This document shows, in pieces, positions 40,545 to 42,534 of a DNA stretch of 42,534 bases. Numbering within the stretch: position 1 is the first letter of the stretch; each line of letters opens with the position of its first letter. The stretch covers positions 1 through 42,534 of the forward strand of contig JACMPX010000033.1 of assembly GCA_014377245.1 (NCBI GenBank), read 5' to 3'. Source of the stretch: Candidatus Altimarinota bacterium. Its GTDB lineage: Bacteria > Patescibacteriota > Gracilibacteria > BD1-5 > UBA2023. A program made the translations under genes and the position numbers. The notes under the pieces are model-generated. The model saw only the letters and a list, made by a program, of their open reading frames with translations, did no database searches and was not told where the DNA came from.

Positions 40545-41735
40545 TTATTTCACTATCTCACCAGGAAGAGTAGTACCGTTGGTTGAGATAACTCTGCCTG
40601 GATATATCAGAGTACCAATACCGATATGAGCACCATCTCCGATGATTGTACCGAGTTTGTATCGTCCGCTATCGATGAGTTTGTCTTTTACCATGACTCG
40701 GATATTTGCTCCATCATGCCTGAGATTGGCGACTTTGGATCACCCTCCTATATTGACGTGGTTGCCTATTACAGAGTCTCAGAAGTAGGAGAGATGTGGT
40801 ACGGCAGAGGACTCACCAATATATGAGTTCTTGATTTCGACGAATGCTCCGATCTTGGAATGATTACCGATACTCGTATTGCCACGAATATACGAATTTG
40901 GTCATATAACTGTTCATTTTCAGAAGTATACATTCCCTTCGATATAGGTTCCTGATTTGAGTATTACTCACTCTTCGAGATAAATATTTCACTTTATGGT
41001 CACATTTGGTTCGATAATTGCTCATTTATCAACTATTGTAGTATATCACCCGATGATTGCATCGTTGGCTCTGAGGAGATCCCACGGATAGCCGATAGAG
41101 ATCCATCGACCAATAGCCACGACGACACTATAGAGTCACTCGCGTATATAGATATGGATGAGATCTGTGATCTCGAGTTCTCATCTGGAAGAGAGGGGGA
41201 GTGCCCTGAGTATCTCGAATATCTGATCATCGAACTTGTGATTGCCAATATTGGCGAGGCTACCGATACTCGCATCTGTTGGTTTCTCGATGATTCCAGT
41301 TGCCCTTCATTCTACATCTGTTGTGAATATCCCAAATAGTTCAGGGTTGCTCACTCTCTTGCAAAGGGTAGCATACCCTGGTTGTTTCATCAGACTGACT
41401 ATATCATCACTCTCGTAGAGATCATCTCACGATATGACGATGAATTCTCAGGTAATACTTCACTCTAGTCCGAGGATTGCGGCACCCGTTCCAGCTTGCT
41501 CTCATTGTTCGATATAGTGTATTTTTTTCCCCTGATACATATCTCCAAAGTATTCCCTGAAACATTCTGATTTATACTTCACAATCATAAAAATCTCATC
41601 GAAATGTTCGATGATCGGCTCGATATTGTGTTCGATGATAGTCTTTCCACAGATCCGTAGAAGTGGCTTCGGAGTATTATCCGTGAGTGGTCTCATACGA
41701 GATCACTCTCAGGCTGCCATGATAACAAGGTGCAT
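40545..41735 (-). CDS. GlmU-like bifunctional nucleotidyltransferase / left-handed beta-helix acyltransferase
   Basis: 396 aa. The N-terminal nucleotidyltransferase has [20 protein letters not shown] (residues 4-22) with the Gly-rich loop partly encoded by TGA, then [14 protein letters not shown] and VISGDDLYE. The C-terminal half shows hexapeptide repeats of a left-handed beta-helix ([63 protein letters not shown]). This is the layout of GlmU, which makes UDP-GlcNAc for peptidoglycan, in the short form also seen in archaea. Other sugar-1-phosphate nucleotidyltransferases with a helix (GMP or dTDP-glucose type) cannot be excluded. UDP-GlcNAc would feed MurA and be sensed by YvcK. Confidence 0.82.
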
Positions 41736-41847: not shown

Positions 41848-41883
41848 AAAAATCCCTCCTTAGAACTCGGGACGGATTTTTTA
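41848..41883 (-). terminator. Terminator after the repeat-protein gene
   Basis: On the minus strand, AAATCCGTCCC, a loop, then GGAGGGATTTTT with a T run, overlapping the TAA of the repeat protein. It separates that gene from the GlmU-like gene, whose start is about 110 nt away. Confidence 0.7.
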
Positions 41884-42534
41884 TTTATCATATCCTCGTC
41901 TATACCGTATGAGAATCTTATCTTGAGCTATAGGCGATAGAATAGAACTAATTATTTTCTTTTTCTCCTCAGTACCGTATTTTACTTTTACTTCTTTAGA
42001 TTTTTGTATCAGCTCTTTTATAGTTTTTAGATTTGGATGTTCGATATTTGCAAGGACTACAGATTCTAAATTCTGACTGAGGAGTTGAGATACTCTCGCT
42101 TTGATCTTGATATCATCCCACGACTTTGTGGATAGTATACGTACTAGTACCCATATCTTATCACGTTTGGAACAAAAAAATAGATCATTTGATTCCATAA
42201 GAGATACTGCCGTATATCAGAGATTATACTTTTGTATCATCTTGATGAGTAAGACAAGTTTTGGTTTTATATTTTTCTCGATATTGTAGCCCAAAATCGG
42301 TGGAAAGGATACAATCATTTTTACAGGATCTAGAAATCCGAATTTCTTGAGAGCTTCTATTTTATCTCAAATGCTCTCGATATTGTAGCCCAAAATCGGT
42401 GGCAAGGATACAATCATTTTTATAGGATCTAGAAATCCGAATTTCTTGAGAGCTTCTATTTTATCTCAAATGCTGTCGATATTGAGTCCCAAAATCGGTG
42501 GAAAGGATACAATCATTTTTACAGGATCTAGAAA
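41881..42534 (-). CDS. mTERF-like helical-repeat protein (N-terminal part outside window)
   Basis: At least 217 residues, continuing beyond the window edge. The visible N-terminal part consists of tandem 33-residue repeats of the form DPVKMIVSFPPILGYNIE and SIGDKIEALKKFGFL, nearly identical to each other. The last repeat runs into YNIEKNIKPKLVLLIKMIQK, then a divergent helical region to the C-terminus (IKELIQKSKEVKVKYGTEEK). Each unit predicts helices with a central Pro-Pro, as in the mTERF repeat (xxFPxILGYSIExNIKPKxxxL) of eukaryotic organellar nucleic-acid-binding proteins. TGA encodes the Gly in SIGDK. I infer an mTERF-like superhelix; binding to DNA or RNA is possible but not shown. Confidence 0.7.
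42277..42534 (-). repeat. 99-bp tandem repeat inside the mTERF-like gene
   Basis: Two complete 99-bp units (42277-42375 and 42376-42474) differ at about two positions, and a third unit starts at 42475 and runs off the window. The period is a multiple of three, so the frame is kept and the copies translate to nearly the same 33 residues. The near-identity points to recent duplication or gene conversion. Confidence 0.92.

Follow-up and report, generated by a model that had tools for sequence, protein, structure and literature searches.

Among the closest described relatives of the proteins analyzed here are human MTERF1 (3MVA/3MVB), MTERF3 (3M66), and MTERF4 (4FP9), which share a 33-residue three-helix motif, a superhelix, and a proline capping the middle helix (PMC4705650). 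MTERF1 comprises eight such motifs of three helices each; each central helix is capped by a conserved proline, these prolines lie along the major groove of the DNA, and the bases are read by R162, R202, R251, R350, and R387 (PMC4705650). Plant and algal organellar mTERFs belong to the same modular PF02536 repeat family and bind DNA or RNA. They are described as eukaryotic, nuclear-encoded proteins sent to organelles, and a review presents mTERFs in general as modular eukaryotic proteins (PMC7909791). No reports of bacterial or phage mTERFs were found in the open-access library searched; UniProt/InterPro may contain automatically annotated PF02536 proteins from bacteria.

A second point of comparison is provided by TAL effectors and BurrH, superhelical DNA binders composed of tandem units of similar length that are near-identical except at clustered positions. 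TAL-like repeats have also been described on Mycoplasma hominis ICEs (PMC6813540), that is, like some of the repeats reported below, on mobile elements. TAL units consist of two helices with a di-residue in the loop, whereas mTERF-type units consist of three helices. Here we describe an mTERF repeat gene of a code-25 bacterium, its patescibacterial and phage homologs, and the variability of their repeat units.

The mTERF repeat gene and its second version

The window analyzed spans the entire contig C15 (42,534 bp), one of 54 that make up a 779-kb genome (G000) of 80% completeness. The last ORF of the contig, open at its 5' end where the contig ends, contains three in-frame TGA codons, read as glycine under code 25. 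Its product comprises the last 18 residues of one unit, two full 33-residue units, and a C-terminal region, as follows:

41881..42534, minus strand: mTERF repeat protein gene, 3' part, 217 aa, code 25 (ORF; PF02536 57 bits; model matches MTERF chains)
42481..42534, minus strand: repeat unit, last 18 residues (FLDPVKMIVSFPPILGLN) (repeat register)
42382..42480, minus strand: complete 33-residue repeat unit (IDSIGDKIEALKKFGFLDPIKMIVSLPPILGYN) (register; 99-bp period)
42283..42381, minus strand: complete 33-residue repeat unit, the final one of the array (IESIGDKIEALKKFGFLDPVKMIVSFPPILGYN) (register; 99-bp period)
41884..42282, minus strand: C-terminal region, 133 aa, net charge +13, terminus DKILIRYRRGYDK (ending common to homologs)
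40545..41735, minus strand: nucleotidyltransferase with hexapeptide repeats (GlmU-like), downstream neighbor on the same strand

The GlmU-like neighbor is outside the mTERF system, and conserved linkage with it was not seen. Tandem Repeats Finder reported a 99-bp period with 2.6 copies and 95% matches in the ORF. An earlier note on this DNA had recognized 33-residue mTERF-like repeats; all the motifs that it named (FPPILGYNIE, DKIEALKKFGF, and IEKNIKPKLVLL) were found, and mTERF (PF02536) was the sole Pfam family above its cut-off in the window protein (57 bits, E=2e-15), well above the curated threshold of 23.1 bits.

The same genome has a second mTERF locus, terminal on contig C38 (17258-17698, E=2.9e-19), which encodes an N-terminal part and three repeats followed by the beginning of a tail. 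The final 58 bases of C38 are found exactly in C15, and a whole-genome search with a 24-base repeat piece, allowing up to three mismatches, found copies at the C38 and C15 ends only. An N-terminal part, which the earlier note had suggested recovering from the adjoining contig, is thus present on C38, but the two sequences were kept separate because their arrays differ. With different units, C38 and C15 represent two versions of the array, which are either paralogs or a single gene that varies between strains. In the C38 version, codon 15 is an in-frame TAG, which follows a plausible ATG and precedes the conserved N-cap (ATG at L001 1429, TAG at L001 1471-1473; C38 17186-17230); this version may be truncated or silenced, may use a different start, or may contain an error. 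The gene upstream of this version (L003:16005-17162) encodes a DUF4143 domain (PF13635, 2e-21) with a P-loop-like N-terminus.

Homologs in Patescibacteriota

The table-25 CPR host proposed in the earlier note was borne out by a full-length homolog from the same genus, the 452-aa protein of Candidatus Gracilibacteria bacterium WB-IL-23 (G001). Further homologs were identified in the same family (G008, 450 aa), in another patescibacterial lineage that uses the standard code (G240, 518 aa), and in the same class, where the G691 and G587 genes are full or nearly full and G685 is cut by a contig end. The window's own genome counted, matches above the Pfam cut-off occurred in 3 of the 77 genomes of the order, in 8/353 genomes of the class, Gracilibacteria, where the earlier note had suggested searching for homologs, and in 2/380 genomes of a phylum-wide draw; one of ten genomes of the order of G240 also had a match, and none of the 14 control genomes did. 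The bacterial and phage mTERF family is sporadic.

PF02536 was also the top Pfam family of the homologs, most of which scored between 30 and 122 bits (threshold 23.1); E-values were 1e-30 to 2e-30 in G008 and G001 and reached 3e-35 in G240, and two-repeat members fell marginally below the threshold (G587, 22.3 bits; phage L031, 21.6 bits). Three more matches of the class (G466, G487, and G477; L050:1803-3062, L051:963-2825, and L052:922-3030), from one other family, are divergent mTERF-like proteins lacking the YxRGY tail; in the L051 protein, the repeats lie at the end of 620 aa. A basic C-terminal tail terminating near YxRGY is common to most patescibacterial members. Most members are basic, above all in their tails, and the repeats are near neutral; the G240 protein is not basic (pI 6.6).

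At the loci examined, no conserved gene neighbor pointing to a pathway was seen. Near the G240 gene, a 712-aa protein (L019:3075-5213) carries a run of approximately 20-residue repeats (LPEIVGGSLYLNGLTSAEGLK-like) and has no Pfam match. Weak matches in G381, G338, G302, and G683, falling on an IS30-type transposase region, an ABC transporter, and RuvA, were inspected and judged to be due to chance. A plasmid search gave no match, and PHROGs, PADLOC, and NCBIfam yielded no family worth naming.

Phage members

The same repeats were found on five GC-rich IMG/VR contigs of phage or prophage origin, which are open under the standard code; two of the genes are complete (L027, 246 aa; L031, 216 aa) and three are cut. 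Their surroundings include a large terminase, an MT-A70 methylase, an AAA ATPase, and a NusG-like protein (L027), an ERF recombinase (L031), and a weak integrase match (L025). The NusG-like gene (L027:12983-13753; PF02357, 1e-9) lies near the large terminase gene. On L030, the mTERF stop codon and the start codon (ATG) of a C5-cytosine DNA methylase gene overlap (339-342), which suggests co-translation of the two proteins. Alphaproteobacterial hosts are likely, because the best DNA matches of the L027 region among annotated phages are Rhodobacter phages.

The tail of the phage L031 protein ends in DKLTLAYRRYRP..., resembling the ending of the window protein, and both G587 repeats are almost identical to phage repeats. 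On these grounds, the genes of phages and Patescibacteria are homologs, with a homology that probably extends past the repeat, and horizontal transfer between them would be the simplest account. One phage record gave a weak tape-measure match (E 6e-4, 23% identity), which was set aside. A scan of viral contigs with the G240 protein alone found nothing, and a viral structure library gave no match at E 0.001.

Predicted fold

A six-member profile compared with PDB sequences matched human MTERF3 (5e-5), MTERF1 (2e-4), and MTERF4 (5e-4). The PDB sequence searches also returned the 'CAP REPEAT' protein 8vd6, a repeat-on-repeat match that was not used as evidence. In the AlphaFold model of the G001 protein (pLDDT about 75-95 in the repeat part and under 50 in the tail), each unit forms three helices (13+7+5 residues). 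The best 14 Foldseek matches of this model were MTERF1, MTERF3, and MTERF4 chains, and VIA-align ranked MTERF1 first (Z 15.7 over 293 residues), followed by MTERF3, MTERF4, and mitoribosomal mTERFs; TAL-type proteins were a far weaker structural match, appearing from Z 8.5 downward. No TAL family was found in Pfam for eight homologs at E up to 10, a search in which HMMER filters drop most very weak matches, or for the window protein at E up to 1.

For the window protein, whose model has a pLDDT of about 70-89 in the repeat part, the structural comparison gave 19 entries with Z of at least 6, every one of them an mTERF protein; the entry after these had Z 2.9. The Foldseek E-values of this short model were weak (0.09 and up); therefore, the evidence for the window protein consists of profile, rank, and homologs taken together. 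The C-terminal tail was modeled with low confidence. Both models agree with the mTERF superhelix; neither outcome that the earlier note had named as refuting it, a missing mTERF profile match or a different predicted fold, was obtained. By sequence and predicted fold the window protein is a member of the mTERF repeat superfamily (PF02536). It is not filed among the organellar mTERF factors, as the genes lie on bacterial code-25 and phage contigs and are not nuclear-encoded.

Variability within the repeat arrays

Units were numbered in the register IDSIRDKIEDLKALGFADPVKMITSLPAILGYN (positions 1-33), in which Pro27 is present in every window unit and in nearly every unit of the family. Some arrays consist of near-identical units, up to 100% at the DNA level. 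The units of G000, G240, and the phages group within their own arrays, which points to recent amplification or exchange, and those of G001 and G008 pair 1:1, which points to a stable array.

The analysis of variability covered few and short arrays. The variable sites were 2, 9, 20, 25, 26, 28, 31, and 32 in G000, 26, 28, 32, and 33 in L027, and 26, 28, 29, 32, and 33 in L025. A set of six positions (25, 26, 28, 31, 32, and 33) was fixed after these three arrays had been viewed, and their P values are descriptive only. The arrays fetched later (G691, G685, and G587) fit this set, with a mean variability of 0.56 compared to 0.33 overall (random-position P=3.7e-3), and the unshifted set was the best of 33 circular shifts. 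In seven arrays taken together, variability was highest at positions 26 (0.77) and 28 (0.60), which flank Pro27, and in several arrays it was clustered at 26, 28, and 31-33, where a target may be read. Neither this clustering nor the occurrence in phages had been anticipated by the earlier note.

By minimum count, G000 units differ by 12 amino-acid and 2 silent changes. Between orthologous units of G001 and G008, identity was 77% at the six positions and 74% elsewhere; the six positions are thus conserved like the rest, which argues against a mere lack of constraint. Final units may lie partly beyond the duplicated segment, so that variability of the last unit could partly mark its border, and in phage L025 silent changes also cluster in the last unit.

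The sites at which the bacterial arrays vary match, in the sequence register, positions of MTERF1 that face DNA. In the MTERF1 chain sequence (numbering 73-396), R202, F243, and R350 directly follow the proline (position 28), F322 occupies position 31, and R251 and Y288 occupy position 3; the numbering was checked by P277 in the 'GPG' loop, in agreement with PMC4705650. In contrast to MTERF1, the bacterial and phage units listed carry A, S, P, T, N, Q, G, or V at position 28, never the base-reading arginine; therefore, the reading chemistry, if any, would be unlike that of MTERF1. Compared with MTERF1, MTERF3, and MTERF4, the genes described here are bacterial and phage genes, some with arrays of near-identical units, and have their own basic C-terminal tail, with the YxRGY ending in most patescibacterial members.

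Discussion

We propose, with a probability of roughly 0.55, that the family forms an mTERF superhelix which binds nucleic acid and diversifies its target preference in the manner of TAL effectors. The 33-residue three-helix units would stack into a superhelix capped at its N-terminus and extended by a basic tail at its C-terminus; this superhelix, aided by the tail, would bind nucleic acid, presumably double-stranded DNA rather than RNA. As the variability of these sites leads us to infer, residues beside the proline may face the target and set sequence preference, and gain, loss, or exchange of units may change the target, recalling TAL effectors. Once bound, the protein could serve as a roadblock to transcription or replication, or as their regulator, in a sequence-specific manner. 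The position of the phage copies among methylation and recombination genes suggests a role in phage-host or mobile-element interplay and a route of spread. The points that weigh against this proposal are the missing arginine at position 28, the near-neutral repeats, the G240 pI, the lack of a conserved neighbor, the possible border effect in last units, and the low-confidence tail.

Fairly unlikely, although it survives best among the alternatives, is an RNA-binding or ribosome-assembly factor resembling MTERF4, whose superhelix would hold rRNA or a partner methyltransferase and whose variability would reflect drift of the partner. The best structural matches include MTERF4 and several mitoribosomal mTERFs, and two of the five phage copies adjoin DNA methyltransferase genes (MT-A70 in L027 and C5-cytosine in L030); however, the C5 methylase is of the DNA type, phages rarely need a ribosome factor, and the sporadic presence within the order is ill-suited to a ribosome factor in a small genome. 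Repurposing toward protein binding is common in helical repeat families, and the near-neutral repeats without base-reading arginines would fit an mTERF-derived scaffold for a protein partner, with the variable positions forming a changing protein interface. We regard this as unlikely, as those positions correspond to the site that faces the groove in MTERF1, and the tails are basic.

Recent gain of the gene from a eukaryote, to serve as an effector on host organelles, appears very unlikely. It would accord with the description of mTERFs as eukaryotic (PMC7909791), with the patchy distribution, and with the life of CPR bacteria alongside other cells, but the closest repeats found for G587 among the bacterial and viral sequences compared are the GC-rich phage repeats, and the near-identical units contrast with the degenerate repeats of MTERF1, MTERF3, and MTERF4. 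Assembly artefact or bin contamination, brought to mind by the two halves at contig ends and their differing arrays, has a negligible probability given in-frame TGA codons that fit code 25, and is refuted for the family by full-length homologs in other assemblies, one of them of the same genus, and by the IMG/VR records.

The nucleic-acid-binding superhelix remains our preferred reading, and a wider one can be offered tentatively, with the odds against it: the family may comprise modular, recombining mTERF arrays of bacteria and phages that read nucleic acid beside a groove-lining proline as a counterpart of TAL effectors, and phage-borne mTERFs may be relatives of the source of organellar mTERFs. 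Phages are thought to be the donors of mitochondrial RNA polymerase.

The mTERF repeat superfamily itself was already known; what appears to be new are its bacterial and phage members and their clustered variability. mTERFs have been presented as eukaryotic proteins that serve gene expression in organelles; these members add a prokaryotic branch to the family, the place of which, as ancestor or as gift from eukaryotes, is now open to phylogenetic testing. Near-identical repeats that differ mainly where human MTERF1 touches DNA suggest evolvable target recognition, and units varying at few sites offer a natural experiment on whether mTERF repeats follow a recognition code, a question that is hard to address with the degenerate repeats of MTERF1-4. 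If such a code holds true, these arrays would provide a new modular scaffold for nucleic-acid targeting.
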